The position numbers were made by a program, and so were the translations under genes. The notes below the pieces were generated by a model. It searched no databases. It was not told the DNA's origin and saw nothing but the letters and a program-made list of their open reading frames with translations. DNA of 64,000 nt from Christiangramia sabulilitoris (GTDB lineage: Bacteria > Bacteroidota > Bacteroidia > Flavobacteriales > Flavobacteriaceae): the NCBI RefSeq assembly GCF_007050985.1, contig NZ_VHSF01000001.1, forward strand, positions 434,001 through 498,000. The letters are read 5' to 3'. This document shows, piece after piece, positions 5,160 to 45,859 of this stretch (positions are counted from its first letter, which is position 1; each line of letters opens with the position of its first letter).

Positions 5160-5167
5160 TAACTTTG
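5160..5167 (+). promoter_or_regulatory. -7 promoter box TAACTTTG for the rRNA methyltransferase gene
   Basis: Exact match to the Bacteroidota -7 consensus TAnnTTTG, ending 18 bases before the ATG at 5186. No clear TTTG -33 element is visible at the right spacing. Confidence 0.6.
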
Positions 5168-5185
5168 CCGACTTAAAGAATTTTT

Positions 5186-6397: not shown

Positions 6398-6399
6398 AT

Positions 6400-6427
6400 A
6401 AAAGCGACCTTTCCAGGTCGCTTTTTT
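6400..6427. terminator. bidirectional terminator
   Basis: AAAAGCGACCT / TTCC / AGGTCGCTTTTTT: an 11-pair stem with A-run and T-run. It lies between the convergent methyltransferase and DUF4377 genes. Confidence 0.9.
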
Positions 6428-6995: not shown

Positions 6996-7089
6996 TGGAA
7001 AAATTAATTGTCCTTATTAAGGTACATATAAAGACCAGAAATAAAAACTTAAGTTTCCCAAAATTTTTAATCTACCCAAGAAAAAATCC

Positions 7090-7097
7090 TAAATTTG
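7090..7097 (+). promoter_or_regulatory. -7 promoter box TAAATTTG for purL
   Basis: Exact TAnnTTTG match, 32 bases upstream of the purL ATG. The -33 element is not obvious. No purine riboswitch fold is apparent in the 130-bp leader. Confidence 0.6.
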
Positions 7098-7129
7098 TGC
7101 CTTTGCAAAACAACACAAACACAACCTAG

Positions 7130-10795: not shown

Positions 10796-10804
10796 TAAAA
10801 AGAG

Positions 10805-10832
10805 AAAGGAGCCAAATGGCTCCTTTTTTTTT
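10805..10832 (+). terminator. purL terminator
   Basis: AAAGGAGCCA / AA / TGGCTCCTTT stem followed by a long T-run, starting 9 bases after the purL stop codon. Confidence 0.9.
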
Positions 10833-11156
10833 GTCTTTAATTTCGGTTCTTATTTATACTCCCATAATCAGAACTGAACCGATTATAAAATTAAGTTTAT
10901 TCAAAATATCTTTTTTAAGATTTGACCTAATTCAAAAACTTACCTGGCTAATAATCAATAGTTTGATCGGCTTGAAAACAGTTTAACTTGAGCTGAGAAT
11001 TTTTATAAAAAATTATATTAATTCGAGGTTTATCTATCAAAAAAGAGGCGTTGATTTGTGAATATGTTAATTATTCTAAATTATTTTGTTGAATTTGATT
11101 TGAAACAGTAGTCAAAATTCCTATTTTGCAAGGCATATCAAAAACTATTCAACTTG
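10833..11156. other. 324-bp AT-rich intergenic region
   Basis: No credible gene. An 80-codon frame overlapping the purL 3' end runs through the terminator into this stretch but has no coding character. The region must carry the acyl-CoA synthetase promoter; TATTTTG at 11122-11128 resembles a -7 box with one base deleted. I see no repeat or RNA structure. Confidence 0.5.
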
Positions 11157-12938: not shown

Positions 12939-12957
12939 ATCTACATTAAGAATATGA

Positions 12958-12993
12958 TAAAAAAAGCTCCTCCCACAAAGAGGAGTTTTTTTG
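12958..12993 (+). terminator. terminator after acyl-CoA synthetase gene
   Basis: An A-run and CTCCTC pair with GAGGAG and T7 around a CCACAAA loop, about 20 bases past the stop. Confidence 0.85.
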
Positions 12994-13047
12994 TTTTAAG
13001 AATTTTAAGGCCTATAATTCAGTAATTTAATATTTTATAACTAATTT

Positions 13048-13065
13048 TATTATGCATGCATAATA
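13048..13065. promoter_or_regulatory. perfect 18-bp palindrome, probable MarR operator
   Basis: TATTATGCATGCATAATA is identical to its reverse complement. It lies 36 bases upstream of the marR ATG and 8 bases upstream of the -7 box, covering the place where the -33 element should be. That is the classic position for a repressor site, and MarR dimers bind palindromes of this size. Autoregulation of the whole beta-oxidation operon is inferred. Confidence 0.75.
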
Positions 13066-13073
13066 TTTTTTCC

Positions 13074-13081
13074 TAACTTTG
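13074..13081 (+). promoter_or_regulatory. -7 promoter box TAACTTTG of the beta-oxidation operon
   Basis: Exact TAnnTTTG match 19 bases before the marR start. The overlapping palindrome occupies the -33 region and no TTTG is seen there, which fits a regulated promoter. Confidence 0.7.
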
Positions 13082-13100
13082 GAATCATTCAAAAAGCCAG

Positions 13101-13553
13101 ATGAAAGAAAAAACTATAGATTATGTTTTGCGTGCAACCTGGATGGCGGTCTCCAAGATGTATAATGAGGAAGCCGGAAAGGCTGGAAGCACTATGGCTA
13201 CGGGATTTGCACTTTTAAGCATAGATCCTGAGGAAGGCACCCCATCTACATCTTTAGGTCCAAAAATGGGTATGGAAGCTACCAGCCTATCAAGAATTCT
13301 TAAAACCATGGAAGAAAAAGGTTTGATCATAAGGAAAAAAAATCCGGATGATGGGCGAAGTGTTCTTATTCACCTAACCGATTTTGGTAAAGAAATGAGG
13401 GATTATTCCAAACGCGTGGTTCTAAGGTTTGATGAAGCAGTAAAAGAATCAGTTTCAGATAAAGATCTTAATACTTTTATAGATGTGGCAAATACCATCC
13501 TGGGACTTATAAGTGATAAGAAAATTTATACAGAAGAAATTAGTATCAGATAA
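13101..13553 (+). CDS. MarR-family transcriptional regulator of fatty-acid degradation
   Basis: 150 residues with a winged helix. The recognition region is GMEATSLSRILKTMEEKGLI (about 56-75) and the wing is RKKNPDDGRSVLIHLTDFGKE (about 77-97), both standard for MarR proteins. It is the first gene of the beta-oxidation operon, 18 bases before the fadN-like gene, and a perfect palindrome overlaps its promoter. By analogy with fatty-acid MarR/TetR regulators the likely ligand is an acyl-CoA that releases the repressor; the ligand is inference. Confidence 0.88.
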   Translation: MKEKTIDYVLRATWMAVSKMYNEEAGKAGSTMATGFALLSIDPEEGTPSTSLGPKMGMEATSLSRILKTMEEKGLIIRKKNPDDGRSVLIHLTDFGKEMRDYSKRVVLRFDEAVKESVSDKDLNTFIDVANTILGLISDKKIYTEEISIR

Positions 13554-13571
13554 AATAATAAAAACCAAAAA

Positions 13572-15977: not shown

Positions 15978-15980
15978 TAG

Positions 15981-16383
15981 TTAGTATTGAGTAAAGAGTA
16001 ATAAGAAATGTACAAATTGGAAGATTTAAAAGTTTGGACAAAAGCAATGAAAGTTGCTAAAGATATTTATGTTCTGAGTTCAGCTTTTCCTTCTGCAGAA
16101 AAATTTGGCTTAACCAGTCAAATCCGTAGAAGTGCAATTTCTATTGCCTCAAATATTGCAGAAGGTGCCGGAAGAAACACCAAAGGAGAATTTAGAAATT
16201 TTCTAAGTATAGCCAGTGATTCTTCTTATGAACTTTTTACTCAATTAACCTTAGCTTATAATTTAAATCTTACTTCTGAGAATCTGGTACAGCCAATTCT
16301 GGAAGAAGTAGTTGAGATACAAAAAATGAATTACTCTTTAATAAAAACTTTAGTCTAATGTGTATCTCAATACTCATTACTAA
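15981..16383. repeat. four-helix-bundle gene unit with imperfect terminal inverted repeats of heptamer type
   Basis: Left arm 15981-15993 is TTAGTATTGAGTA. The right arm 16371-16383 reads, on the minus strand, TTAGTAATGAGTA; 12 of 13 bases match. Both arms belong to longer stretches with a 7-base period (TTAGTAT-TGAGTAA-AGAGTAA on the left; TTAGAAT-TTAGTAA-TGAGTAT on the right, minus strand). The enclosed 403 bp hold one gene. This looks like a discrete insertion unit within the operon; no target-site duplication was proven. Confidence 0.5.
16008..16358 (+). CDS. four-helix bundle protein (23S rRNA intervening-sequence / S23 family)
   Basis: 116 residues, all helical. It shows the family signature: LEDLKVWTKAMKVAKDIY at the start, LTSQIRRSAISIASNIAEGAGR in the centre (about 37-58) and FRNFLSIASDSSYELFTQL after it. 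The family includes proteins encoded in 23S rRNA intervening sequences and is related in fold to Avd of diversity-generating retroelements; no reverse transcriptase, template repeat or rRNA is near. It has no link to fatty-acid metabolism yet sits between fadN-like and thiolase genes, bounded by inverted heptamer arms, so it is probably an insertion. Confidence 0.88.
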   Translation: MYKLEDLKVWTKAMKVAKDIYVLSSAFPSAEKFGLTSQIRRSAISIASNIAEGAGRNTKGEFRNFLSIASDSSYELFTQLTLAYNLNLTSENLVQPILEEVVEIQKMNYSLIKTLV

Positions 16384-16401
16384 ATTCTAAATACTAGAAA
16401 A

Positions 16402-17592
16402 ATGAAGACAGCATATATAGTAAAAGCATACAGAACTGCAGTAGGAAAAGCTCCAAAAGGTGTGTTTCGTTTCAAAAGACCAGATGAACTGGCTGCTGAA
16501 ACGATCCAGTACATGATGGATAAATTACCAGATTTCGACAAGACCCGGATTGATGATGTTATGGTTGGAAATGCCATGCCAGAAGCAGAACAGGGTTTGA
16601 ACGTTGGTCGACTGATCTCTCTTATGGGATTAAAAATTGAAGACGTTCCCGGGATGACCGTAAACAGATACTGCGCATCAGGTCTGGAAACCATCTCGAT
16701 TGCAACAGCAAAGATCCAGATGGGAATGGCAGACTGCGTGATCGCAGGTGGTGCAGAAAGTATGAGTTATATCCCAATGGGCGGATATAAGCCGGTGCCA
16801 GATTATGAAGTAGCCAAAGCCGGTAATGAGGATTATTACTGGGGAATGGGTCTCACTGCAGAGGCAGTAGCGAATAAATACAATGTTTCCCGTGAAGACC
16901 AGGATGAATTTGCTTACAATTCGCATCAGAAAGCGATAAAAGCTCAGGCAGAAGATCGTTTCCAGGATCAAATTGTTCCAATTACCATTGATGAAACCTA
17001 TGTGGATGAAAATGGTAAGAAACAAACCAGGTCTTACACTGTAAATAAAGATGAAGGTCCAAGAAAAGATACTTCCATTGAAGTTCTTAATAAATTGAGA
17101 CCGGTGTTTGCAGAAGGTGGAAGTGTTACTGCAGGTAACTCTTCACAGATGAGTGACGGAGCCGCTTTTGTAATGGTGATGAGCGAGGAAATGGTAAAGG
17201 AACTAAACCTTGAGCCAATTGCCAGAATGGTAAGTTATGCCGCAGTTGGTGTAGAACCAAGAATCATGGGAATAGGACCCGTACATGCTATTCCAAAGGC
17301 TTTAAAACAAGCTGGAATTAAGCAGGATGACCTGGAGTTAATAGAATTGAATGAGGCATTCGCTTCTCAATCTCTGGCCGTTATCAGAGAGCTCGACCTT
17401 AATCAGTATAAGCTTAACGTAAATGGAGGAGCTATCTCTATGGGACACCCGCTAGGATGTACCGGAGCAAAATTATCTGTTCAGGTTTTCGACGAAATGC
17501 GCAAGCGTGATTTAAAGAACAAGCATTGTATGGTTACCATGTGCGTAGGTACAGGCCAAGGTGCTGCCGGAGTTTTTGAATTCCTGAACTAG
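16402..17592 (+). CDS. fadA: acetyl-CoA acyltransferase (3-ketoacyl-CoA thiolase)
   Basis: 396 residues, normal thiolase length. It performs CoA-dependent cleavage of 3-ketoacyl-CoA to acetyl-CoA plus shortened acyl-CoA, the last step of beta-oxidation. The nucleophile is C91 in NRYCASGLETI. The second active-site block is GGAISMGHPLGCTGA with H349 and the third is MCVGTGQGAAG with C381. All catalytic residues are present. It is the third metabolic gene of the MarR-led operon, separated from fadN-like by the four-helix-bundle insertion. Confidence 0.93.
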   Translation: MKTAYIVKAYRTAVGKAPKGVFRFKRPDELAAETIQYMMDKLPDFDKTRIDDVMVGNAMPEAEQGLNVGRLISLMGLKIEDVPGMTVNRYCASGLETISIATAKIQMGMADCVIAGGAESMSYIPMGGYKPVPDYEVAKAGNEDYYWGMGLTAEAVANKYNVSREDQDEFAYNSHQKAIKAQAEDRFQDQIVPITIDETYVDENGKKQTRSYTVNKDEGPRKDTSIEVLNKLRPVFAEGGSVTAGNSSQMSDGAAFVMVMSEEMVKELNLEPIARMVSYAAVGVEPRIMGIGPVHAIPKALKQAGIKQDDLELIELNEAFASQSLAVIRELDLNQYKLNVNGGAISMGHPLGCTGAKLSVQVFDEMRKRDLKNKHCMVTMCVGTGQGAAGVFEFLN

Positions 17593-17610
17593 AACTAAAC
17601 AATGAGATCT

Positions 17611-17682
17611 TAGAAGTGAGATCTTAAATGAAATAGAAAAATTAATCCATAAAGTGAGATTTTCGATAATCATATCTCACTT
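17611..17682. repeat. heptamer-type direct and inverted repeats in the thiolase-dehydrogenase gap
   Basis: AAGTGAGAT occurs at 17614-17622 and 17652-17660, and inverted as ATCTCACTT at 17674-17682. The last two copies can form a 9-pair hairpin with a 13-base loop, without a T-run. The following TCTAAATACTAAATA is shared with the right flank of the four-helix-bundle unit (TCTAAATACTAGAAA), and on the minus strand both read as 7-base-period DNA. It may be a gene-less relative of that unit or an mRNA processing or stability element. Confidence 0.5.
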
Positions 17683-17699
17683 CTAAATACTAAATAAAA

Positions 17700-19508
17700 A
17701 TGAGCACAGATACAGCTAAAAAAGATCTTTTACGCGGGGGCCAGTTCCTGGTAAAAGAAACTAAGAGTGAAGACGTCTTCACACCAGAAGATTTTAACGA
17801 AGAACAAAAAATGATGCGCGATTCTGTTAAGGAGTTCGTAGAGCGTGAAGTATGGCCTCACAAAGAACGTTTTGAGCAAAAAGACTATGCTTTAACCGAA
17901 GAGGTAATGCGCAAAGCTGGAGAGCTCGGTTTTCTTGGAGTTGCCGTACCAGAAGAATATGACGGGTTAGGAATGGGATTTGTATCCACTATGTTGGTTT
18001 GTGATTATATTTCAGGAGCAACAGGATCTTTAGCTACTGCCTTTGGTGCACATACTGGAATTGGTACTATGCCAATTACCTTATATGGTACCGAAGAACA
18101 AAAGAAAAAATATGTACCAAAACTGGCTACCGGTGAATGGTTTGGAGCTTACTGTTTAACTGAACCTGGTGCAGGTAGTGATGCCAATTCCGGAAAGACC
18201 AAAGCAGTACTTTCAGATGACGGGAAATATTACAGCATCAGCGGGCAGAAAATGTGGATCTCCAACGCCGGTTTTGCTAATGTATTTATCGTTTTCGCGA
18301 GAATAGAAGACGACAAGAACATTACCGGATTTATAGTTGAAAATGACCCTGAAAACGGTATTACCTTTGGCGAAGAAGAGAAGAAATTAGGTATTCACTC
18401 CTCCTCTACCCGCCAGGTGTTCTTTAACGACACTAAAGTACCGGTGGAAAATATGCTTTCAGAGCGTGGAAATGGTTTTAAAATAGCCATGAATGCCCTG
18501 AACGTAGGTCGTATCAAACTTGCTGCTGCATCTTTGGATGCTCAAAGAAGAGTAACAGATCTTTCAGTAAAATATGCTAATGACCGCGTACAGTTCAACA
18601 CACCTATATCTAAATTTGGTGCTATAAAGTCTAAACTGGCAGAAATGGCTACTTCTACATATGTTGGAGAAGCTGCAGCTTACCGTGCTGCCAAGAATAT
18701 TGAAGACAGGATTAATATTCGTCTGGAGGAAGGAAACTCTCATTCTGAAGCTGAGCTGAAAGGTGTGGAAGAATATGCTATCGAATGTTCTATTTTAAAA
18801 GTAGCCTGTTCAGAAGATGTTCAAAACTGTAGTGATGAAGGAATTCAGGTATTTGGTGGTATGGGCTTCTCTGCTGATACTCCAATAGAATCTGCCTGGA
18901 GAGATGCACGTATAGCCCGAATTTACGAAGGTACTAACGAGATCAACAGAATGCTGGCGGTTGGTATGTTGGTAAAGAAAGCGATGAAAGGTCACGTAGA
19001 TCTATTAGGTCCTGCGATGAAGGTAGGTGAAGAATTAACCGGAATTCCATCTATGGACAAACCAGATTTTTCTAAGCTTTTTGCTGAAGAAAAAGACATG
19101 ATCGCCAAGCTGAAGAAGGTATTTTTAATGGTAGCAGGAAGTGCCGTACAGAAATTTGGACCTAAGTTGGAAGAAAACCAGCAGTTATTACTGGCTGCCT
19201 CAGATATTTTAATTGAGGTTTATATGGCCGAATCTGGTATCCTGAGAGCTGAGAAGAACGCCAAGCGATTTGGGGAAGAATCTCAAGCTGAAGAGATCGC
19301 TATGGCAAAACTTTATCTGTACCATGCCGTAGATATCATTAATACAAAAGCCAAGGAAGGTATCGTTTCCTTCGCTGAAGGTGATGAACAGAAAATGATG
19401 TTGATGGGTCTTAAGCGTTTTACCAAGTACACCAACATGCCGAATGTTGTAGAACTTAGAAATAAGATCGCTGAGAAACTGACTTCTGAAAATAAATATT
19501 GTTTCTAA
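17700..19508 (+). CDS. acyl-CoA dehydrogenase, long (VLCAD-like) form
   Basis: 602 residues, FAD-dependent first step of beta-oxidation. The helical N-terminal domain carries FVEREVWPHKERFEQ. The FAD and substrate middle domain has YCLTEPGAGSDANS (about 151-164) and GQKMWISNAGFANVF (about 182-196). The C-terminal helical domain holds the QVFGGMGFS motif and IYEGTNEINRML, where E410 is the expected catalytic base. A further about 170-residue C-terminal extension is typical of VLCAD/ACAD9-like bacterial proteins. Last gene of the operon; an electron-transfer flavoprotein is not encoded in the window. Confidence 0.93.
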   Translation: MSTDTAKKDLLRGGQFLVKETKSEDVFTPEDFNEEQKMMRDSVKEFVEREVWPHKERFEQKDYALTEEVMRKAGELGFLGVAVPEEYDGLGMGFVSTMLVCDYISGATGSLATAFGAHTGIGTMPITLYGTEEQKKKYVPKLATGEWFGAYCLTEPGAGSDANSGKTKAVLSDDGKYYSISGQKMWISNAGFANVFIVFARIEDDKNITGFIVENDPENGITFGEEEKKLGIHSSSTRQVFFNDTKVPVENMLSERGNGFKIAMNALNVGRIKLAAASLDAQRRVTDLSVKYANDRVQFNTPISKFGAIKSKLAEMATSTYVGEAAAYRAAKNIEDRINIRLEEGNSHSEAELKGVEEYAIECSILKVACSEDVQNCSDEGIQVFGGMGFSADTPIESAWRDARIARIYEGTNEINRMLAVGMLVKKAMKGHVDLLGPAMKVGEELTGIPSMDKPDFSKLFAEEKDMIAKLKKVFLMVAGSAVQKFGPKLEENQQLLLAASDILIEVYMAESGILRAEKNAKRFGEESQAEEIAMAKLYLYHAVDIINTKAKEGIVSFAEGDEQKMMLMGLKRFTKYTNMPNVVELRNKIAEKLTSENKYCF

Positions 19509-35015: not shown

Positions 35016-35045
35016 AAAGCCCTGCTTCGTTGCAGGGCTTTTTTT
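35016..35045. terminator. bidirectional terminator between convergent genes
   Basis: AAAGCCCTGC / TTCGT / TGCAGGGCTTT followed by T's. It overlaps the stop codon of the leftward App1 gene. Confidence 0.92.
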
Positions 35046-36012
35046 ATATTATGTCAATTCTTTCAGAATGTTGTATAGCTTTTTCACTATTCCTGAAATA
35101 ACAAACACTTACTCCCATGCTTTCGATATTTTCTAAAACCTTATTGATCTTATCTTTTTGTTTGCTGCTGGTCTGCCTGATATAAACCGCCCTAATATTT
35201 AACGGGAAACTTTTGCAGATCTTTTCGTAGAGATAAGCATCATGCTGGGAATCATCACCCAGTAATACATATTTAAGTTTGGGGTAAAAGGAAATGATAT
35301 CCTTTATCTTGATAAATTTATGATCATGATCTCCCCTACCCGATTTTATAAAATCACTAAGACCTGTCTTAATATCTTTCAATTTAATTACCGCCTTAGG
35401 CAGATCGTGTAAGGCAGCAAACTCCTCGATAAAATCATACAGATTCCATTCGCTGCTGGAGACGTAGAAAAAGGAATTCGAGGCTTTCTTCTTATTATCC
35501 TGGCCGGCGATACTTAATCTTTTATAGTGCCTTACCACGTCATTAAAAACTTTGCGTTTATTAAGGTTTTTTGAAAGCATCACATATAGTTTTTTAAAAA
35601 AACTATTACTATGAGAGATTAGAAAAGTATCATCAATATCAGAAATGATCCCGAACCTGCTTTTATAAGGTTTTAATAACTCACCGGTTTCTATGATTCC
35701 GAAATCATGCATTTTGCAAATCACCTCATATCTATGCCAGCCCGGTTCAAGATCTTCGTTATAGGGGATGGTAAATCTAAAATATCCATCATCCATGGTT
35801 TTCGTGGTGACTTCCAGGTCCCTGAATCTTAATTTTACTTCATAGTTCTTTAAAGGTTTGATTCGGAATTTGTGCAAAATGGCGTAGGCGTGCTTTATAC
35901 CTTTTTTCTCAATACTGTATTTATCAGGGGCCCAGGACTCGAATAAATGACCAAAAACAACCAGTTCCTCGTCATTCGCATATCCCCGGTATAACTTAAG
36001 ATCTAATTTCAA
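35044..36012 (-). CDS. App1-family phosphatidate phosphatase (DUF2183)
   Basis: 322 residues. The N-terminal beta domain (1-118, YRGYANDEELVVFGHLF) is followed by a HAD-like catalytic domain with SDIDDTF (D125-I-D127-D-T129), the DxDxT nucleophile motif of App1/lipin-type phosphatidate phosphatases. YVSSSEWNLYDFIEEF (about 186-201) and LGDDSQHDAYLYEKI (about 254-268) complete the fold. Likely reaction: phosphatidate to diacylglycerol. The start is TTG; no ATG fits. It is divergent from a diacylglycerol kinase-family gene, so the pair could interconvert phosphatidate and diacylglycerol. Confidence 0.87.
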   Translation of the reverse strand: MKLDLKLYRGYANDEELVVFGHLFESWAPDKYSIEKKGIKHAYAILHKFRIKPLKNYEVKLRFRDLEVTTKTMDDGYFRFTIPYNEDLEPGWHRYEVICKMHDFGIIETGELLKPYKSRFGIISDIDDTFLISHSNSFFKKLYVMLSKNLNKRKVFNDVVRHYKRLSIAGQDNKKKASNSFFYVSSSEWNLYDFIEEFAALHDLPKAVIKLKDIKTGLSDFIKSGRGDHDHKFIKIKDIISFYPKLKYVLLGDDSQHDAYLYEKICKSFPLNIRAVYIRQTSSKQKDKINKVLENIESMGVSVCYFRNSEKAIQHSERIDII

Positions 36013-36083
36013 AATATTGGCCTTTTTTTAAAATTGCTTTGTTCCAAAATAATTAATTTTAAGCGTTTTGTAAACATAACCGT

Positions 36084-36956
36084 ATGAATTTTAAGGAAGT
36101 TTTATTGGTTGTAAATCCAATTTCCGGAGACACAGAAAAGGTTAAAATCATTTCACGGGTTAGAAAGCATATTGAAAATGTGCAGGCAAATTTTCATTTA
36201 TATTCTACTACCGGTGAGAATGATAAGGAAAATATTTTGTCCCGGATCAAAGATCATAAAATAGACCGTGTTCTGGTCGCAGGTGGAGATGGCACTATAA
36301 ATCTGGTTGCTAATGCGATCAAGGATTTTAATATCGCTATGGGTATTATTCCTGCCGGCTCGGCGAATGGACTGGCGGTTAATTTCAATATTCCTGAAGA
36401 TTTGGATGAACAGATAATGATCTCACTAGGCTCAAATACAATAGATTTGGATTTGATCTGCCTGGATGATAGCATATGCCTTCACCTTAGTGATCTTGGG
36501 ATTAATGCTGAATTAATCAAAAACTACGACCAATCTTCTATCCGGGGAAAATTTGGTTACCTCCTCAATTCTATACCCACGCTTATTCAAAGTGAATTCC
36601 CTTTTGAATTCACCATAGAAACAGAGTCTCGAAGGCTGGAAGCCAGGGCGATTTTATTAGGTATAGCAAATGCGAATAAATATGGGACCGGCGCTAATGT
36701 AAACCCCAAAGGGGTACCGAATGATGGAAAGTTTGAGATCCTTATCTTTAAGAAATTAAGCATCACGGATATAATCAAAACCCTAAGAAATGAAAGCGAC
36801 CTGGATCCGGATTTTGTTGAAATAATTCAATCGAAAAAAGCTAAGGTCTATAGTAAAAAACCTGTAGCTTTCCAGATAGACGGTGAATATATTGGAAAAA
36901 GAACTGAAATAGATATTAAAATTATACCACGGAAACTGAAAATGGTCATTCCGTAA
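36084..36956 (+). CDS. diacylglycerol/lipid kinase family protein
   Basis: 290 residues, the length of YegS/DgkB-type lipid kinases. NPISG at 11-15 and AGGDGTINLVANAI at 66-79 form the ATP-binding GGDGT motif; GIIPAGSANGLAVNF follows, as in the family. The C-terminal beta-sandwich ends with FQIDGEYIGKR, the conserved late motif. It phosphorylates diacylglycerol or a similar lipid. Located 71 bases from the divergent App1-type phosphatase. Confidence 0.9.
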   Translation: MNFKEVLLVVNPISGDTEKVKIISRVRKHIENVQANFHLYSTTGENDKENILSRIKDHKIDRVLVAGGDGTINLVANAIKDFNIAMGIIPAGSANGLAVNFNIPEDLDEQIMISLGSNTIDLDLICLDDSICLHLSDLGINAELIKNYDQSSIRGKFGYLLNSIPTLIQSEFPFEFTIETESRRLEARAILLGIANANKYGTGANVNPKGVPNDGKFEILIFKKLSITDIIKTLRNESDLDPDFVEIIQSKKAKVYSKKPVAFQIDGEYIGKRTEIDIKIIPRKLKMVIP

Positions 36957-36997: not shown

Positions 36998-37642
36998 TTA
37001 TAAAGACATGGCCTTACCATTTCCTAATTCGTCATTGGGCCCGCAGGCAATATATATCCCTGGAATAGGATCATACCACATTACATTTTCACCGATTTCC
37101 TCGCTGTTTTTCCAGGCCCAGATCCCTAGCTCCCTCACCGTGGTAAGGTAGGCATAAGCTCCCGCATCTGCATCGATACCCATTTCAGTTTGTTGTTTCT
37201 GTGCATCCTGTGTTTCTGTGAGTCGTGTCACATATTGCTCCTGTTCTGCCGGGCTCGCTTTTAAATATTTCCTGGTAATTTCCTCGAATTCCTGCTTAAC
37301 ACCTTCTTCCTGTGCTTTTTCATATTCAGTTTCAAAGGCACTGGAAAATGCATTGGCTGCTTCAGTAAACCTTTTTCTTCTTTGCTCATCTGCTACCTCA
37401 TCCATATAAGAATCAATAAACTGAGCTATGTTCAGATCTGAAGCTCCCGGGGTGTCTGTTTTCGGTATAATAATTTCCAGTACATTTTTTAGGGTGTAAC
37501 CCTGGGCCGCACTTAAAAAAACGGGTTGCCAGTCATACTCTGGTTCGCTCTTACAACTATGTAATAAACTAAGGGTGCCGGGCCCAACAATGATCGCTCC
37601 TGCTCCCAGTCCAATATTTCGTAATGCCTGTCTTCTATTCAT
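36998..37642 (-). CDS. gluconate 2-dehydrogenase subunit 3-family Tat lipoprotein
   Basis: 214 residues. The N-terminus has a Tat-like twin-arginine (MNRRQALRNIGLG) and a hydrophobic core ending in LLHSC, so it should be folded in the cytoplasm, exported by Tat and lipidated. The mature helical domain (LKNVLEIIIPKTDTPGASDLNIAQFIDSYM, then QEGVKQEFEEITRKYL) is the gluconate 2-dehydrogenase subunit 3 family. In glucoside 3-dehydrogenases this small subunit carries the GMC catalytic subunit across the membrane. It follows the GMC gene by 10 bases in the same operon. Confidence 0.88.
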   Translation of the reverse strand: MNRRQALRNIGLGAGAIIVGPGTLSLLHSCKSEPEYDWQPVFLSAAQGYTLKNVLEIIIPKTDTPGASDLNIAQFIDSYMDEVADEQRRKRFTEAANAFSSAFETEYEKAQEEGVKQEFEEITRKYLKASPAEQEQYVTRLTETQDAQKQQTEMGIDADAGAYAYLTTVRELGIWAWKNSEEIGENVMWYDPIPGIYIACGPNDELGNGKAMSL

Positions 37643-37652
37643 AAATAAAGAA

Positions 37653-39350
37653 TTAAGCTATTGTCTTTTTAAAATTTTTAACCGCATGATCCACAGCTCT
37701 TGCCGTAAGAGCCATATAGGTCAAAGAAGGGTTTACACAGGATGCAGAAGTCATGCATGCGCCATCGGTGACATATACATTGGGCACCGCATGAACCTGG
37801 TTAAAAGAATTCAACACAGATGTTTTTGGATCTCTGCCCATTCTTGCAGTACCCATTTCATGGATTCCAAGCCCGGGTGCACCAATATCATCATATGGTC
37901 TCACATCTTTGAAGCCAGCCTTTTCAAGCATTTGAACTGCCTGGTCTTTCATATCTTCCCTCATTTTAAGCTCGTTCTCCTTAAACTCTGCATCAAAAGT
38001 GACCGTAGGTAATCCCCACTCATCCTTTTTATCATAATCCAGCATCATCTTATTTTCATGATATGGTAGTGTTTCACCAAATCCGGTCAATCCCATGGTC
38101 CAGCTTCCGGGCTCTGTAAGCTTTTGCTTTAATTCCTTCCCATAACCCATCTCGGCTACGGCATCCTGCCAGTTATCCCGGCTGGCTCCGCCCTGATATC
38201 CATATCCTCTTATAAAGGCACTATCTTTTTCTCCTAAGTTCCGGAAACGAGGTAAGTATATTCCATTGGGTTTTCTTCCTTTATAATACGAATCTTCAAA
38301 ACCCTCATATTTACCATAAGCACCAACCTGGAAGTGGTGATCCATAATATTATGCCCTAATTCACCACTGTCATTACCCAGACCTTCCGGAAAACGATCA
38401 GACCTGGATTGCATTAGAATACTTGTAGAAGCAATGGCAGATGCACAAAGGAAAATCACGTCAGCATAATATTCGTATACCTCCATAGTTTCTGTATCAA
38501 CTACCTTTACTCCAATTGCTTTTTTCTTATCGGCATCATATAAAACTTCAGATACAATGGAATAAGGCCTGAGATCCATGTTTCCGGTTTTACTGGCGGC
38601 TGGAAGTGTAGAAGAATTACTACTGAAGTATGCGCCGTAAGGACAACCTCGTATGCACCTGTTTCTAAACTGGCAACTGCCCCTACCTTCAAATTTCTTA
38701 TCGCCGGTAATATGTGCTACCCTGCCGGCAGTCATGATGCGGCCATCAAAATTTTCATAAATACTTTGTCTTAAATGATCTTCCACGCAGTTCAACTCCA
38801 TCGGGGGAAGGAACTGCCCGTCAGGAAGCTGAGGAAGGTTTAGTTTTTCACCGGATATACCAACAAAAGACTCCACTTTATCATACCAGGGTGCTATATC
38901 TTTATAACGAATAGGCCAATCTACAGCGATACCATCGTTTTTATTTGCTTCAAAATCAAGATCGCTCCATCTGTAACTATGTCTTCCCCACATGATAGAT
39001 CTTCCTCCAACATGATATCCCCGCATCCAGTCAAACCTTTTGATCTCGTTATATGGATGTTTAATATCATCCACAAACCAGTGCTTACTGGGTTCTGTGA
39101 TAGTATAACCAGTGCGTGCCTGTTTATGCTGACGGTTAAGCTCTTCTCTGGGTAACTGTCCTTTATACTTATAGTCCCAGGGATCATCGTTCATGGTAGG
39201 GTAATCCTTCACATGCTCTACCATCCTTCCTCTCTCCAGGACCAGGGTTTTAAGCCCCTTTTCACAAAGTTCCTTGGCAGCCCAGCCACCACTAATACCG
39301 GTGCCTACAACTATAGCATCGTATTTATCATTTTCGTAGTATATACTCAC
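37653..39350 (-). CDS. GMC-family flavoprotein oxidoreductase, likely glucoside 3-dehydrogenase catalytic subunit
   Basis: 565 residues, GTG start (no ATG fits). The FAD dinucleotide motif is VVGTGISGG (14-22) with LVLERG at the end of strand 2. GGRSIMWGRHSYRW is the GMC signature 1 region. The C-terminal HEMGTARMG and NVYVTDGACMTSASCVNPSLTYMALTAR hold the expected catalytic His/Asn set. A cysteine-containing insert (RGSCQFRNRCIRGCPYGAY) has four close cysteines, seen in gluconate/sorbitol/glucoside dehydrogenases. No own signal peptide, consistent with co-export with the Tat subunit encoded next to it. Proposed reaction: oxidation of a glycoside at C3. Confidence 0.88.
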   Translation of the reverse strand: MSIYYENDKYDAIVVGTGISGGWAAKELCEKGLKTLVLERGRMVEHVKDYPTMNDDPWDYKYKGQLPREELNRQHKQARTGYTITEPSKHWFVDDIKHPYNEIKRFDWMRGYHVGGRSIMWGRHSYRWSDLDFEANKNDGIAVDWPIRYKDIAPWYDKVESFVGISGEKLNLPQLPDGQFLPPMELNCVEDHLRQSIYENFDGRIMTAGRVAHITGDKKFEGRGSCQFRNRCIRGCPYGAYFSSNSSTLPAASKTGNMDLRPYSIVSEVLYDADKKKAIGVKVVDTETMEVYEYYADVIFLCASAIASTSILMQSRSDRFPEGLGNDSGELGHNIMDHHFQVGAYGKYEGFEDSYYKGRKPNGIYLPRFRNLGEKDSAFIRGYGYQGGASRDNWQDAVAEMGYGKELKQKLTEPGSWTMGLTGFGETLPYHENKMMLDYDKKDEWGLPTVTFDAEFKENELKMREDMKDQAVQMLEKAGFKDVRPYDDIGAPGLGIHEMGTARMGRDPKTSVLNSFNQVHAVPNVYVTDGACMTSASCVNPSLTYMALTARAVDHAVKNFKKTIA

Positions 39351-39637
39351 AATTATTAATTATTTCGGTGATTCTTATGGTGGAAACCTATCAAATATAT
39401 AAATATATAGGCATAATTTTACATCTTTAAAAAAAAGACTACATTTAAATTTGAACTTTTTTTGAATTTTTAATTAGCTATAATCTTGTTCTATTAATTA
39501 CTATCAATGATTAACAATTCAGATGTATTTATTCATTCTGCCAGTAACCAGATGTACTGTTTCTGATGTTTCTTGGTGCTTTAATAAAAAAATACCAGTT
39601 AAAATAATCTGTATAAAATAATTACAACCCAACTACT
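39351..39637. other. divergent promoter region of the 3-keto-glycoside locus
   Basis: 287 bp, very AT-rich, between the GMC operon and the permease operon. It must carry both promoters. I see no exact TAnnTTTG on either strand, no clear palindrome and no regulator gene next to it. Confidence 0.4.
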
Positions 39638-40876
39638 ATGAACAAACTTGTAAGATTTCAACTCTCCCTAATGATGTTTCTGGAATTCTTTATTTGGGGA
39701 GGTTGGTTTGTTACCCTTGGTACTTTTTTAGGATATAACCTTAATGCTACAGACGTACAGATCTCAACCGCTTTTTCCACCCAGTCCTGGGGAGCAATTA
39801 TTGCCCCTTTTATTATCGGGCTTATAGCAGATCGCTTTTTTAATGCGGAAAGGATACTTGGTTTCCTGCATTTAATAGGAGCAGTGTTATTATACCTTAT
39901 GTACAATAGCACAGATTTTACAGGCTTCTATCCCCTGGTCCTGGGATATATGATCGCATATATGCCCACGCTGGCATTGGTTAATTCTGTTTCCTTTAAT
40001 CAAATGAAAGATCCGGCCAGGGAGTTTTCCTATATAAGAGTTTTCGGAACTATTGGCTGGATCGTGGCCGGTTTGGTAATTAGCTATCTTTTTTACTGGG
40101 ATGCTCCCGAGGCAAGACAGGAAGGAATGTTGAAATATACATTCCTGATGGTTAGTATAGCTTCGGCCTTTCTGGGCGTTTTTAGCTTTACTTTGCCCAA
40201 AACACCTCCCACGGTAGACAGATCAAAAAAAGTAAGTATCGTTGAAACTTTAGGACTGGATGCCCTAAGCCTTCTGAAAGACAGGAATTTTTTAATGTTT
40301 TTCCTGGCTTCGGTACTTATTTGTATTCCTTTGGCTTTTTATTACCAGAACACTAATCCATTTTTATCTGAAATTGGAGTTCAGAATCCAACCGGTCTTA
40401 TGACCATTGGTCAGGTATCTGAAGTATTATTTATGCTTCTTCTCCCCTTTTTCTTTAAAAGATTCGGTTTTAAACTTACCATTATTGCAGGAATGCTGGC
40501 CTGGACCTTAAGGTATGTACTCTTTGCCTATGGAAATTCCGGTGAATTAATCTTCATGCTTATAACCGGTATAGCCCTGCATGGCATATGCTACGATTTT
40601 TTCTTTGTTTCAGGACAGATCTATACAGATTTCAAAGCAGGCTCAAAATATAAAAGCTCTGCGCAAGGTCTTATAACCCTGGCTACTTATGGCGTGGGAA
40701 TGCTAATAGGATTCTATGTAGCTGGAATTATTACCAATGCATATGTTACAGGTGAAAAAATGCATGATTGGGAAACCATCTGGATATACCCGGCTGCTTT
40801 CGCATTTATCGTTATGCTGCTTTTTATCTTATTTTTTAAAAATGAGAAGATCGATAAGAAAGATATAGAATTATAA
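39638..40876 (+). CDS. NHS-family (NupG-like) MFS permease
   Basis: 412 residues with about 12 transmembrane helices. The start MNKLVRFQLSLMMFLEFFIWGGWFVTLG and the SYIRVFGTIGWIVAG segment are typical of nucleoside:H+ symporters of the NHS family. In this operon (permease, Gfo/Idh/MocA, isomerase, DUF1080) a sugar or keto-sugar is the more likely cargo than a nucleoside; that is inferred from context. The next gene starts 14 bases after its stop. Confidence 0.88.
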   Translation: MNKLVRFQLSLMMFLEFFIWGGWFVTLGTFLGYNLNATDVQISTAFSTQSWGAIIAPFIIGLIADRFFNAERILGFLHLIGAVLLYLMYNSTDFTGFYPLVLGYMIAYMPTLALVNSVSFNQMKDPAREFSYIRVFGTIGWIVAGLVISYLFYWDAPEARQEGMLKYTFLMVSIASAFLGVFSFTLPKTPPTVDRSKKVSIVETLGLDALSLLKDRNFLMFFLASVLICIPLAFYYQNTNPFLSEIGVQNPTGLMTIGQVSEVLFMLLLPFFFKRFGFKLTIIAGMLAWTLRYVLFAYGNSGELIFMLITGIALHGICYDFFFVSGQIYTDFKAGSKYKSSAQGLITLATYGVGMLIGFYVAGIITNAYVTGEKMHDWETIWIYPAAFAFIVMLLFILFFKNEKIDKKDIEL

Positions 40877-40890
40877 AATTGAAATAAGTT

Positions 40891-42027
40891 ATGGCTAAGA
40901 TCAGGCTGGGAATTTTAGGAGGAGGTAATGATTCGTTAATTGGTATTTTACATCGGGTTGCCGCAAATATGTTCGAGCAGTTCGAGATTACTGGTGGGGT
41001 TTTTAATGTAGATCATGATAAGAGTCTAAATTTTGGTGAAAGACTCGGCCTGGACAGGTCCAGGGTTTATAAGAATCTCGAGGAAATGATTCGGCAGGAA
41101 AAGGAACTACCCGAAGATAAGAGAATACAGGCGGTTTCTATTCTTACTCCGAATTTCCTTCATTACCCTATGGCCAAGCAATTACTGGAAAATGGCTTTC
41201 ACGTTATTTGCGAAAAACCATTAACCACCACTTTGCAGGAAGCAAGGATTTTAAATGAAATTCAGGCAGAATCGAATTCAATTTTTGCGGTTACCTATAC
41301 CTATACGGGATATCCTATGATCAGGCAAATGAAATCGATGATTGCAAATGGTGAAATAGGCAGCATTCAAAAAATTGATGTTCAGTATTACCAGGGTTGG
41401 ATTAATCCCTTAATTCATGATAAAGATAAAAGATCTGCCACCTGGAGGCTTGATCCGGAAAAATCCGGGATTAGCTGTTGTATTGGGGATATAGGAACCC
41501 ATGCATTTAATATGGCAGAATATGTTAGTGGAATGAAGGTGGAAAAAATTCTGGCAGATCTTAATTACCTTTACGAGGATAATCCAATGGATATTGATGG
41601 CACTGTCTTATTGCGATTTGGAGAAAACGTCAAAGGAGTACTCAGGGCAAGCCAGATCGCTACGGGAGAAGAAAATAATTTCACAGTTCAGATCTATGGC
41701 GATAAAGGCGGTTTGAAGTGGGAACAGGAAAACCCTAATTACCTTTATCTGTTAAAAGAAGATCAGGCATTGCAGGTTCTAAAACCTGGACATGCATTTC
41801 TAAGTGATTTTTCTTTAGAAGGAACCAAATTACCTCCGGGCCATCCGGAAGGGATATTTGATTCTATGGGTAATATTTATTATGGGGTGGCCATGGCAAT
41901 TAAGGACAAGGTAAAATATACCGGCGCTTATCCAACGTTAGGTGATGGATTAAGGGGAATGAGTTTTATCGAAAAAACCGTTTCTTCTCACAAACAGGGC
42001 AATATCTGGATCAAAATGCAGGATTAA
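40891..42027 (+). CDS. Gfo/Idh/MocA-family NAD(P)-dependent sugar oxidoreductase
   Basis: 378 residues. The Rossmann fold starts with LGILGGGNDSLIG, and CEKPLTTT (about 111-118) is the family's EKP motif with the conserved Lys. GDIGTHAFNMAEYVSG (about 200-215) carries the catalytic Asp/His. The family interconverts sugar hydroxyls and ketones; members act on 3-keto-glucosides in other 3-keto pathways (for example ThuB-like proteins). Here it would reduce an imported 3-keto sugar. Spaced 14 and 16 bases from its neighbours. Confidence 0.9.
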   Translation: MAKIRLGILGGGNDSLIGILHRVAANMFEQFEITGGVFNVDHDKSLNFGERLGLDRSRVYKNLEEMIRQEKELPEDKRIQAVSILTPNFLHYPMAKQLLENGFHVICEKPLTTTLQEARILNEIQAESNSIFAVTYTYTGYPMIRQMKSMIANGEIGSIQKIDVQYYQGWINPLIHDKDKRSATWRLDPEKSGISCCIGDIGTHAFNMAEYVSGMKVEKILADLNYLYEDNPMDIDGTVLLRFGENVKGVLRASQIATGEENNFTVQIYGDKGGLKWEQENPNYLYLLKEDQALQVLKPGHAFLSDFSLEGTKLPPGHPEGIFDSMGNIYYGVAMAIKDKVKYTGAYPTLGDGLRGMSFIEKTVSSHKQGNIWIKMQD

Positions 42028-42043
42028 TTCAAAATTTTAAAAA

Positions 42044-43096
42044 ATGAAAACGATCAAAGGACCCGCAGTTTTTCTGGCGCAGTTCATGGATGATAAAGAA
42101 CCATTTAATTCACTTGATGGCTTATGTAAATGGGCTGCAAATCTTGGCTACAAAGGCATACAGATCCCTACCTGGGAAACCAGATTAATCGATCTGGAAA
42201 AAGCTGCTGAAAGTAAAACTTATTGTGAAGAGTTGAAAGGCAAAGTAGCTTCATACGGGCTGGAGATAACAGAACTAAGTTCTCATCTGCAGGGACAGCT
42301 GGTTGCTGTACATCCTGCTTATGATCTTATGTTCGATAATTTTGCTCCCGAAGAATATAAGAACAATCCCAAGAAAAGAACAGATTGGGCCATAAAGCAG
42401 TTAAAATTTGCAGCCAGGGCCAGTAGAAATCTAGGTCTGGATGTTCATGGTACTTTTAGTGGATCTTTTCTCTGGCATACAGCCCACCCATGGCCCCAGA
42501 GACCAGATGGACTTGTTGAAATGGGTTTTGCAGAGCTTGCAAAAAGATGGATGCCTATACTTAACGAATTTGATGCTCAGGGTGTAGACGTTTGCTACGA
42601 GATCCATCCGGGGGAAGATCTTCACGACGGTGTGACCTTTGAACGATTCCTTGAAGCCACAAATCACCATAAAAGGGTAAATATTCTGTATGATCCCAGT
42701 CATTTTGTACTTCAACAACTCGATTATATAAAATATATAGACCATTATCATGATTATATCAAAATGTTCCATGTGAAAGATGCTGAATTTAATCCAACAG
42801 GTAAGAAAGGAATGTTTGGAGGATATGGAGATTGGAGAGACCGTGCCGGCAGATACAGGCATCCGGGCGATGGCCAGGTAGATTTTAAAACCGTCTTTTC
42901 AAAACTTACTGAATATGGCTGTGATGTCTGGGCAGTACTTGAGTGGGAATGTTGCATTAAATCTCCCGAACAGGGAGCTAAGGAAGGTGCTGTATTCATT
43001 CAGAATAATATCATAGAAGCAACCCAAAAAAGATTTGATGATTTTGCCGGTTCTGAAATTGATGAAAACAAACTAAAAAAGATCTTAGGAATCTAA
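42044..43096 (+). CDS. xylose-isomerase-like TIM-barrel sugar isomerase/epimerase
   Basis: 350 residues. The metal-site residues of the AP-endonuclease-2/sugar-epimerase family are visible: E186 in CYEIHPGEDL, D217 and H220 in LYDPSHFVLQ, H243 in MFHVKDAEF, and E300 in VLEWE. It has no signal peptide and acts in the cytoplasm. In the operon it lies between the oxidoreductase and DUF1080 genes, fitting isomerisation, epimerisation or retro-type processing of a keto-sugar product. Confidence 0.88.
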   Translation: MKTIKGPAVFLAQFMDDKEPFNSLDGLCKWAANLGYKGIQIPTWETRLIDLEKAAESKTYCEELKGKVASYGLEITELSSHLQGQLVAVHPAYDLMFDNFAPEEYKNNPKKRTDWAIKQLKFAARASRNLGLDVHGTFSGSFLWHTAHPWPQRPDGLVEMGFAELAKRWMPILNEFDAQGVDVCYEIHPGEDLHDGVTFERFLEATNHHKRVNILYDPSHFVLQQLDYIKYIDHYHDYIKMFHVKDAEFNPTGKKGMFGGYGDWRDRAGRYRHPGDGQVDFKTVFSKLTEYGCDVWAVLEWECCIKSPEQGAKEGAVFIQNNIIEATQKRFDDFAGSEIDENKLKKILGI

Positions 43097-43108
43097 TCCA
43101 ATTCAAAA

Positions 43109-43855
43109 ATGAAAACTATTTATCTGCCTGTCATGGCAATTTTATTAATCACCGCCTGCAAAAATGACCCAAAATCATCTGAAGAAAAGATCCAGGTAAA
43201 ATCGGAAAATATGAAAACTGAAGAACAGGACGACTGGCAGGTGCTTTTCAATGGGAAGAATCTGGATTCCTGGCAGGTTTATAACCGGGATTCTATTTCG
43301 GGCCAGTGGCGGGTGGAAAATGAAGCGATCGTATTTACTCCGGCAACTGGTGGACAAAGGATCAAAGAGTATTTAATGACAAAGGATAAGTTTGAAAATT
43401 TTGAACTTGAAATAGAGTGGAAAATTTCTGAAGCAGGAAATAGTGGTATTTTATGGGCTGTTCAGGAAATGGAGAAATATGATGAGCCTTATTACACAGG
43501 TCCGGAAATACAAATTCTCGATAATCAAAACCATCCTGATGCTCAAAATGGCCTAAATCGCACAGCAGGTGCTTTATATGATATGGTTGCTCCAAAAGTA
43601 GATGCCAGCAAACCAGCTGGAGAATGGAATAAGGAAATTATTCATATAGACCATCAGGCCAATATAGGCTGGGTGGAATTAAACGGAGTACGAATTGTTG
43701 AATTTCCTGTACACGGTGAAAGATGGGATAAAATGGTGGCTAAATCGAAATTTAAAGACTGGAAAGATTTTGGTGCCAGCCGGGAAGGTCATATAGCGCT
43801 GCAGGATCATGACGATAAGGTCTGGTTCAGGAACATCAGGATTAAAGAACTTTAA
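43109..43855 (+). CDS. DUF1080 (3-keto-disaccharide hydrolase family) lipoprotein
   Basis: 248 residues with a lipoprotein signal ending in LITAC. The mature part is the DUF1080 beta-jellyroll: WQVLFNGKNLDSWQVYN, WRVENEAIVFTP, FENFELEIEWKISEAGNSGILW, YYTGPEIQILDNQNHPD and GHIALQDHDDKVWFRNIRIKEL, all in the usual order. Pfam renamed this family after members that cleave 3-keto-glycosides. Together with the neighbouring C3-oxidising dehydrogenase it gives an envelope-located oxidise-then-cleave pair. Last gene of the permease operon. Confidence 0.9.
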   Translation: MKTIYLPVMAILLITACKNDPKSSEEKIQVKSENMKTEEQDDWQVLFNGKNLDSWQVYNRDSISGQWRVENEAIVFTPATGGQRIKEYLMTKDKFENFELEIEWKISEAGNSGILWAVQEMEKYDEPYYTGPEIQILDNQNHPDAQNGLNRTAGALYDMVAPKVDASKPAGEWNKEIIHIDHQANIGWVELNGVRIVEFPVHGERWDKMVAKSKFKDWKDFGASREGHIALQDHDDKVWFRNIRIKEL

Positions 43856-43942: not shown

Positions 43943-45154
43943 ATGAAAAAGATTGATGTAAGTTTTGAAAATTCCGAAGGCACTCAGTTGAAAGGAATTT
44001 TAGAATTACCTTCAAACAGGCAACCGGAAAATTTCATATTGTTTGCCCATTGCTTCACCTGCAACAAGAATTTTCACGCCCCAACCAACATAAGTAAAAA
44101 CCTCGCTTCCAATGGATTTGGAGTTTTGAGATTTGATTTCACTGGACTTGGGGAAAGTGAAGGCGAATTTGAGGACAGCAGCTTCTCTGGTAATGTGGAA
44201 GATCTAATCGCAGCTGCCAATTTTCTCGGAAAAGAATATAAATCACCCTCGATCCTTATTGGCCATTCTCTGGGTGGTGCCGCAATATTATTCGCCGCGA
44301 GCCAGATTGAATCCGTACAAGCTATCGTTTCCATAAATGCTCCGTCAAATCTAAGTCATCTAAAAAAGCATTTTCAATCCAGCCTGGAAGATATAGAGAA
44401 AGATGGGTCTGCCAGGATTAAAATAGGCGGCAGAAGTTTTCGTATCAAGAAGCACTTTATTGAAGACCTTAAGAAAAATGAAGATGCTGAAGCATTGAAA
44501 AAAATTAGAAAACCTTTATTAATAATGCATTCTCCACAGGATGAGATTGTCTCTGTAGATCATGCCGAAACCCTTTATAAGGCTGCGTGGCATCCAAAGA
44601 GCTTTATCTCACTGGACGGAGCAGATCATATGCTAAGTGAAAAAAAAGATTCTGAATATGCCGGGCTGGTGATTGCGGCCTGGGTTTCCAGATATATCAC
44701 TATTCCTGAAGTACCGGAACTTGAAACCGATCATGAGGTGATGGCGAATTTGGGTGCAGAAGGTTATACCACCCAGATTATAGCTGGCAATCATCACCTG
44801 GTAGCAGATGAACCGGTGAAAGTTGGGGGTAGTGACTTAGGGCCTAATCCTTACGAACTGGTCTCCGGCGGGCTTGCTGCGTGCACTTCCATGACGATAC
44901 AGATGTATGCCAGGAGAAAGGAATGGAAAGTAGATAACGTGGAAACTCATGTATCATACTCTAAAAAGCATGCCGAAGATTGTGAAAATTGTGAAAATGA
45001 TAAGGCTAAAATCGATCATTTTGATCGCGAAATAACTCTGAAGGGAGATCTCGATGAATCAAAAATTAAAAGGCTTATGGAGATTGCAGATAAATGTCCC
45101 GTCCACAAAACCCTGAGTGCGCAGGCGAAAATCACTACGAAGCAGAAGAATTGA
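43943..45154 (+). CDS. alpha/beta hydrolase-OsmC fusion protein
   Basis: 403 residues. The N-terminal half (1-260) is an alpha/beta hydrolase with GHSLGGAAI as nucleophile elbow (Ser near 110), SPQDEIVSVDHAE as acid loop and GADHMLSE with the His. The C-terminal half (about 275-400) is an OsmC/Ohr domain whose two cysteines appear in AACTSMTIQMYARR and DKCPVHKTL, the pair that reduces organic hydroperoxides. The natural fusion suggests hydrolysis of an ester or acyl group coupled to peroxide or thiol chemistry. Neighbour of Cu/Zn SOD, so oxidative-stress context. Confidence 0.9.
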   Translation: MKKIDVSFENSEGTQLKGILELPSNRQPENFILFAHCFTCNKNFHAPTNISKNLASNGFGVLRFDFTGLGESEGEFEDSSFSGNVEDLIAAANFLGKEYKSPSILIGHSLGGAAILFAASQIESVQAIVSINAPSNLSHLKKHFQSSLEDIEKDGSARIKIGGRSFRIKKHFIEDLKKNEDAEALKKIRKPLLIMHSPQDEIVSVDHAETLYKAAWHPKSFISLDGADHMLSEKKDSEYAGLVIAAWVSRYITIPEVPELETDHEVMANLGAEGYTTQIIAGNHHLVADEPVKVGGSDLGPNPYELVSGGLAACTSMTIQMYARRKEWKVDNVETHVSYSKKHAEDCENCENDKAKIDHFDREITLKGDLDESKIKRLMEIADKCPVHKTLSAQAKITTKQKN

Positions 45155-45268
45155 ATCACAAAAGTTTCAGCAATATTCCTTTGTTAAGCTAAGCTTAAAA
45201 CTTTGGAGATGCTTGTTATTAGGACTAATTTAGAATTATAATTCAATTTAAAAACCAATCGAAACACT

Positions 45269-45859
45269 ATGAGACGTATTAGTTTATCACTTATCCTTTG
45301 TGCAGGTTTGATCTTCACAAGTTGTAAAAACGAAAAGGAAAAAAATGACCTTGATGACCAGCAGGAAACCGAAGTCACTACTGAAATGGAAACCGAAAAA
45401 GAAGAAGTTAAAAAAGTTAAAGTAAGCCTTCAACCTGTAAGCAATTCTAAGCTTAGTGGAAATGTTGTTTTTACTGAAGAAAATGGTAAAGTTGCCATGA
45501 CCGCGATAATTTCTGGACTGGCAGAAGGTAAACATGCCATCCATATTCATGAAAACGGCGATTGTTCTGCTGCTGATGGTTCATCTGCAGGAGGACACTG
45601 GAACCCAACCGGTCAACCTCATGGTAAATGGGGAAGTTCTGATGGTTACCATAAAGGCGATATAGGAAATTTTGATGTTGATGCAAATGGTAATGGTACT
45701 GTAAATCTAACCACGAGTGAATGGTGCATTGGCTGCGATGATAAAAATAAAGACCTTTTAGGAAAGGCCGTTATTGTACATGATGGTGTAGACGATTATA
45801 CTTCTCAACCTTCCGGAGCTGCCGGAACCAGAGTGGGTTGTGGGGTGATTAAGAAATAA
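45269..45859 (+). CDS. sodC: Cu/Zn superoxide dismutase, lipoprotein
   Basis: 196 residues. The lipoprotein signal ends in FTSC, followed by a charged Glu/Lys/Asp linker (about 20-52) that would hold the enzyme off the membrane. Metal ligands are complete: HIHENGDC (two Cu His plus the disulfide Cys), GGHWNPTGQPHG (bridging His and a Zn His), YHKGDIGN (Zn His and Asp) and VIVHDGVDDY (Cu His). RVGCG supplies the second disulfide Cys and the active-site Arg is in AAGTRVGCG. It dismutates superoxide in the envelope. Confidence 0.95.
   Translation: MRRISLSLILCAGLIFTSCKNEKEKNDLDDQQETEVTTEMETEKEEVKKVKVSLQPVSNSKLSGNVVFTEENGKVAMTAIISGLAEGKHAIHIHENGDCSAADGSSAGGHWNPTGQPHGKWGSSDGYHKGDIGNFDVDANGNGTVNLTTSEWCIGCDDKNKDLLGKAVIVHDGVDDYTSQPSGAAGTRVGCGVIKK

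Follow-up and report, generated by a model that had tools for sequence, protein, structure and literature searches.

A non-hydrolytic 3-keto route for glycosides is already published, and a 2024 paper in Nature is said to describe a broad-specificity glycan pathway. In the Bacteroides pathway of the BT2157–BT2160 type, a Gfo-type glycoside 3-dehydrogenase performs the first oxidation. Here, we report a divergent six-gene locus of Christiangramia sabulilitoris, positions 36,998–43,855 of the 64,000-nucleotide stretch analysed (contig NZ_VHSF01000001.1, positions 434,001–498,000, forward strand; the window), which is one more conserved carrier of the published pathway and in which the first oxidation would instead fall to a GMC dehydrogenase. 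We consider it quite likely that the locus encodes the known 3-keto route with import by its own permease included. The transport step would be the new part: among open-licence PMC papers, our searches met none in which an NHS permease is the named importer of this route.

Several described systems share parts of this gene set. The Agrobacterium tumefaciens operon encodes GlycDH, a Tat protein, OGE, HYD and a Gfo enzyme; oxidation and elimination have been shown for it, and the evidence for hydration and reduction is preliminary (PMC10628242). The Agrobacterium operon resembles the window locus in its GMC dehydrogenase with a Tat partner, its hydratase and its Gfo reductase, for the same four chemical steps; cleavage, however, belongs to the TIM-barrel OGE in Agrobacterium and would belong to a PF06439 protein in the window, and the available part of PMC10628242 reports no NHS permease in the operon. 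In Caulobacter, LacABC is found near a PF06439 protein, a transporter, two epimerase-like genes and a reductase, with fitness data, and similar clusters are described in Halomonas, Algoriphagus and Indibacter (PMC9007349). By gene description, the likeness covers GMC, subunit 3, PF06439, transporter, epimerase-like genes and reductase and reaches some Bacteroidota; the Caulobacter cluster has the LacB cytochrome and two epimerase-like genes, whereas the window locus is without LacB. The Bacteroides type shares the cleavage of 3-keto disaccharides by PF06439 proteins (BT2157, PMC9007349; BT2158, PMC11300592). The levoglucosan pathway LgdA-LgdB1-LgdB2-LgdC has the same oxidation, elimination, hydration and reduction, but its first oxidation (LGDH) is, as we read it, of NAD type, unlike that of the window (PMC7676230).

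The TIM-barrel protein of the locus matches PDB 8ro4, titled 2-hydroxy-3-keto-glucal hydratase, over its full length (540 bits, E 2.8e-161), with 224 of 350 residues identical (64%). Among the identical residues are E186, D217, H243 and E300, which we take to be the usual metal-binding places in this barrel superfamily. As judged from sequence, the protein is a hydratase and not the isomerase that a preliminary description of this DNA had named, and 8ro4 itself is probably the Agrobacterium HYD. Because the substrate of such a hydratase arises from C3-oxidised glycosides (PMC10628242), the locus is tied to C3 oxidation. An inositol-type module, in which the TIM barrel would be IolE and the Gfo protein the inositol dehydrogenase IolG, could appeal to weak family similarity (59.9 and 63.7 bits, respectively); we give it hardly any credence, as these scores lie far under the cut-offs of 290 and 355 and the solved IolE reaches 38 bits against 540 for 8ro4.

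The PF06439 protein matches its family with 166.7 bits (cut-off 26.8), the Pfam name now being 3-keto-disaccharide hydrolase, and its solved relatives include 8v31, 8tda, 8rr2 and 9fbe. By family, it would supply the 3-keto-glycoside-cleaving enzyme that the route requires. The Gfo/Idh/MocA protein is a constant neighbour of the hydratase in relatives and is a probable 3-keto-glucose reductase; among solved structures, the uncharacterised 3v5n is nearest to it. It was also compared with the models of levoglucosan dehydrogenase (101.9 bits, cut-off 650), BT_2158 (41.9 bits, cut-off 750) and BT_2159 (29.6 bits, cut-off 650) and stayed below the cut-off of each. On a plasmid of Azospirillum sp. 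TSH58 (positions 4400–13069 of locus L058), a hydratase homologue and a Gfo gene are flanked by a sugar ABC transporter and by xylA/xylB, a setting which suggests that the pair may be used elsewhere too.

The closest solved proteins of the GMC dehydrogenase are the large subunits of fructose and glucose dehydrogenase. Its Cys226, Cys232 and Cys236 align with the three cysteines of fructose dehydrogenase that bind an iron–sulphur cluster, and all three are kept in 130 of 130 aligned GMC pieces, a few of which are one gene fetched twice. Export signals of the six proteins were judged by eye. The subunit 3 protein starts with MNRRQALRNIGLG followed by LLHSC, i.e., a twin arginine and a lipobox, and both the twin arginine and the lipobox Cys30 are conserved in an alignment of 30; the PF06439 protein has the lipobox LLITAC; no signal was seen in the GMC, Gfo and TIM-barrel proteins. 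The locus thus holds both a member of the flavin adenine dinucleotide (FAD)-dependent GMC family and a partner with a Tat signal, and Pfam and the signals agree with the earlier statement that a GMC protein without signal peptide adjoins a Tat-lipoprotein subunit 3. TatC is encoded in the genome. A search with a structural model of subunit 3 turned up no solved relative. Elsewhere in the genome, a CBB3-type cytochrome neighbours ActD of an alternative complex III, and a dehydrogenase of the GSDH family has a cytochrome c gene next to it.

We infer the reactions in this organism, their cellular places, the transported species and the substrates as follows, the envelope and the cytosol being assigned because of the signals present or absent. 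The GMC dehydrogenase would leave the cell with its lipoprotein partner, thanks to the partner's Tat signal, and in the envelope oxidise a glycoside at its C3 hydroxyl, the electrons passing via FAD and probably an iron–sulphur cluster to a cytochrome c or the alternative complex III encoded elsewhere. The PF06439 lipoprotein would beta-eliminate the 3-keto-glycoside to 2-hydroxy-3-keto-glucal, or yield 3-keto-glucose if it also adds water; the permease, of the YegT type, would bring the cleavage product in with protons; the cytosolic hydratase would form 3-keto-glucose, which the Gfo/Idh/MocA enzyme would reduce to glucose. Since the hydratase lacks a signal, it may be 2-hydroxy-3-keto-glucal itself that is imported. 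Oxidative 3-keto catabolism had already been put forward in the preliminary description, and the hydratase, the PF06439 protein and the GMC protein with its cysteines bear this out; the hydration step between elimination and reduction was missing from that scheme.

There are 23 same-genus relatives, two of which are fragmented, with permease and hydratase sharing a contig in each. The divergent block is present in all 21 same-genus loci laid out, so the joint conservation of the two operons, which had been proposed as a check, holds; in other genera of the family, it is present with variations. Of 79 genomes searched, 36, the window's included, encode the hydratase, and all 36 have a GMC protein of at least 60% identity; such a GMC protein without hydratase occurs in G036 and G048. 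PF03825, the family of the permease, is found above its cut-off in 30 of the 36. Plasmids of Hymenobacter volaticus and Xanthomonas sacchari carry the same gene set, with a cytochrome c gene inside the cluster.

The window locus differs from its relatives in one gene. The stretch between GMC and permease genes measures 1169–1191 bases in 21 of 21 aligned same-genus loci against 299 bases in the window (nearly the same measure), and in all 21 relatives it holds an open reading frame (ORF) of 331–335 residues with a lipoprotein-like start; the single intergenic ORF scanned proved to be a TIM barrel of PF01261. With a limit of E 1e-10, this extra TIM-barrel protein occurs in 35 of the 79 genomes, i.e., in every hydratase-bearing genome except that of the window. 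No remnant of the gene was seen in the window's gap, whose 56–101 bases adjoining the GMC gene are 78–89% identical to seven relatives (blastn, 7 of 21 same-genus gaps). The closest solved relative of the extra protein is the uncharacterised 4ovx (247 bits), with weak further matches to DgpC1, 7bvs and 7bvr (E 3.5e-7 to 4.6e-6); 7EXB and 7EXZ, listed with 7bvs and 7bvr, are named C-glycoside deglycosidases (PMC10628242). The protein may act as a second eliminase in the envelope or as an epimerase.

The six-gene form therefore appears to be a secondary loss in this genome, or possibly an assembly fault. The preliminary description had read it as a minimal general-purpose module; as only one of the 36 hydratase-bearing genomes has lost the extra gene, that design fails, being true of this genome and not of its relatives with their seventh gene. 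With the second TIM-barrel lipoprotein gone, cleavage at this locus would rest on the PF06439 protein alone. One could go further and take the module to be decaying here, its pathway cut or its substrates narrowed by the loss. The uniqueness of this genome among the 36 speaks for such decay, to which we nevertheless assign a small probability: the six genes left are intact and resemble those of relatives (permease up to 95% identity, hydratase up to 93%), and in other bacteria a PF06439 protein, BT2157, is reported to cleave 3-keto-glycosides alone (PMC9007349). The loss offers a natural comparison of what the PF06439 protein does without the extra TIM barrel.

The permease fits the PF03825 profile (387.9 bits, cut-off 25.9), falls below the cut-off of TIGR00889 (376.3 against 446.1 bits) and is nearer to YegT (318 bits) than to NupG (201 bits). 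In NupG, ribose is contacted by R136, T140 and E264, D323 serves protons, and the nucleobase is contacted by F143, Q225, N228, Q261, Y318 and F322 (PMC11241209). The window permease keeps the ribose set (R134, T138, E262), the proton site (D320, equivalent to D323) and Q259, equivalent to Q261; the other five of the six nucleobase contacts are replaced, by W141, A233, Y236, H315 and Y319. In these residues and in the TIGR00889 score, the permease departs from the NupG-type nucleoside permeases. All ten compared pocket residues are identical in E. coli YegT, and the window permease shares about 42% identity with a plasmid-borne E. coli yegT copy. For YegT (PDB 8zoj), significant nucleoside binding was not found (PMC11979927), and transport of gemcitabine, cytidine, uridine and xanthosine was not detected (PMC11241209). 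That the permease is a nucleoside importer, standing beside sugar genes by chance or serving nucleoside sugars, is suggested by the family name of PF03825 and by the retained ribose contacts. It is nonetheless very improbable, given the five replaced nucleobase contacts, the behaviour of YegT with the same five residues, and the linkage of the permease to pathway genes in many gene orders. In a quick tree of 113 permeases, the tryptophan-bearing ones form one clade (SH-aLRT 96), which contains YegT. An NHS permease with the pocket FSYQF and alanine at the proton-site aspartate (L164, on G254:C5) is sister to the whole YegT-type clade.

The linkage was examined in a draw of 198 genomes from the phylum, 65 of which yielded permease hits, 76 in all; the window's own was left out and 75 were examined. 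Neighbourhoods reached at most about 8 kb to either side, as far as the contig allowed, and GMC, subunit 3, Gfo, hydratase and PF06439 were counted as pathway kinds. A pathway gene lies within 8 kb of 44 of 51 YegT-type permeases (W at position 143) and of 0 of 24 permeases of the other type (23 with FQNYF and one with FSYQF). Among the 51, at least two pathway kinds were found in 37, one in seven and none in seven. In eleven genomes, a permease of each type is present; linkage was found for the YegT-type copy in ten of them and for the other copy in none. Ten neighbours were scanned at six of the seven unlinked YegT-type loci (all but L148). At five of them (L129, L130, L131, L133 and L145), the permease stands beside a different Gfo/Idh/MocA gene of 331–397 residues; at L143, no Gfo/Idh/MocA gene was found among the two neighbours scanned. 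Perhaps the loci with a different Gfo gene serve another oxidised-sugar route.

A scan of named genomes used a YegT-type alignment as query and kept the best 80 loci, so that little else was findable; W at 143 is present in 80 of 80, while position 225 is variable, with Q in nine. Within 8 kb, 59 of these 80 loci are linked to a pathway gene and 21 are not, and the linked ones come from seven named phyla, with one further record unassigned. The window's layout recurs at loci of Allomuricauda and Aureitalea, which by itself makes a source in Flavobacteriaceae probable. At least four other gene kinds occur at 39 of the 80, in 17 order strings, of which about ten are, by our count, truly different orders, since some strings differ only by a gene missed or doubled. 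The pairing of an NHS permease with this pathway, raised in the preliminary description, is thus one found in many genomes (44/51 and 59/80).

We propose that the YegT-type branch of the NHS family may consist not of nucleoside transporters but of permeases that use protons to import oxidised sugars (3-keto-hexoses or 2-hydroxy-3-keto-glycals), with a W-x-Y-H-Y pocket replacing F-Q-N-Y-F, and that the orphan YegT of E. coli may fall within this group or an offshoot of it that imports sugars; to us, this proposal stands evenly balanced between right and wrong. If it is true, a branch annotated as nucleoside permease would need renaming and YegT would gain a testable substrate class. Alternatively, the pathway may run as proposed while the permease imports an ordinary monosaccharide freed by the cleavage, such as glucose, or another plain sugar. 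Free glucose from periplasmic cleavage has been proposed to enter by a separate transporter (PMC9007349), YegT has the same pocket although its operon yegTUV is described with ADP-ribosylglycohydrolase and sugar kinase genes (PMC10819704), and 7 of 51 and 21 of 80 YegT-type permeases have no pathway gene within 8 kb. We regard plain-sugar import as rather unlikely: the linked hydratase and Gfo enzyme have no signal and their substrates are oxidised sugars, which means that an oxidised product must enter the cell, and the permease is the sole transporter in the block.

Several observations weigh against the 3-keto route with import of the oxidised product by the YegT-type permease. Six of the 36 hydratase-bearing genomes (G025, G027, G029, G040, G042 and G043) have no PF03825 member; in G042, a different major facilitator superfamily (MFS) protein takes the transporter's place, and the Pseudoalteromonas cluster has an MFS protein that the NHS query does not match. 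For these reasons, we consider the permease to be replaceable. The split between YegT-type and other permeases (W/F) is a single change on the tree, which includes 27 of the 80 named loci. Since the many observations of the split go back to one event, it is the pocket and the repeated linkage in different gene orders that carry the argument. The Gfo protein reached no specific NCBIfam model and met no reductase model. Cytochrome c is not encoded locally, unlike in LacABC with its LacB, and the cytochrome of the Hymenobacter cluster type, used as query, had no match in the window's genome at E 0.001.

A second pair of GMC and subunit 3 genes lies in the same genome at about 967–971 kb of G000:C1 (L015, G000:C1:960000–978000, positions 4177–17967), with a Tat-lipoprotein TIM barrel between the two; inspection by eye shows SusC/SusD-like genes nearby, together with an FG-GAP lipoprotein that has a CxxCH motif. 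One PF03825 member, one PF06439 member and one hydratase were found in the genome, all three of them in the window, and the two GMC loci may share the later steps of the pathway.

All six ORFs score above the Pfam gathering thresholds, and the ORF check and Pfam confirm the coordinates, strands and families first assigned to them. GMC and subunit 3 genes are separated by 10 bases, the four rightward genes by 12–16 bases, and the two divergent groups by 287 bases. Cytochrome c, SusCD, glycoside hydrolase and regulator genes, noted as absent at the outset, are indeed lacking among ORFs of at least 100 residues within 36998–43855.

Table 1. Genes and control region of the divergent 3-keto glycoside locus, in window positions.
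Feature	Position	Strand	Support
Subunit 3 (LacC-like), Tat lipoprotein, gluconate 2-dehydrogenase subunit 3 family	36998..37642	-	PF13618, E 1.3e-18
GMC FAD dehydrogenase, GTG start, no signal peptide	37653..39350	-	PF05199 + PF00732
Conserved part of the divergent control region	39347..39473	no strand	blastn against same-genus gaps
NHS-family permease, YegT type, pocket W141-A233-Y236-H315-Y319	39638..40876	+	PF03825, E 7.3e-116
Gfo/Idh/MocA oxidoreductase, probable 3-keto-glucose reductase	40891..42027	+	Gfo/Idh/MocA Pfam domains; neighbour of hydratase
TIM barrel, 2-hydroxy-3-keto-glucal hydratase by sequence	42044..43096	+	PF01261; 8ro4 match
PF06439 (DUF1080) lipoprotein, probable 3-keto-glycoside lyase or hydrolase	43109..43855	+	PF06439, E 8e-49

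On the subunit 3 side, positions 35044–36956 of the window hold a divergent pair, an APP1-type phosphatidate phosphatase and a diacylglycerol-kinase (YegS)-like lipid kinase, which is not beside the cluster in the fetched stretches of relatives. On the other side, positions 43943–45859 hold an alpha/beta hydrolase-OsmC fusion and then a lipoprotein resembling, by eye, Cu/Zn superoxide dismutase; in most of the 21 same-genus loci, too, these two genes come after the cluster.

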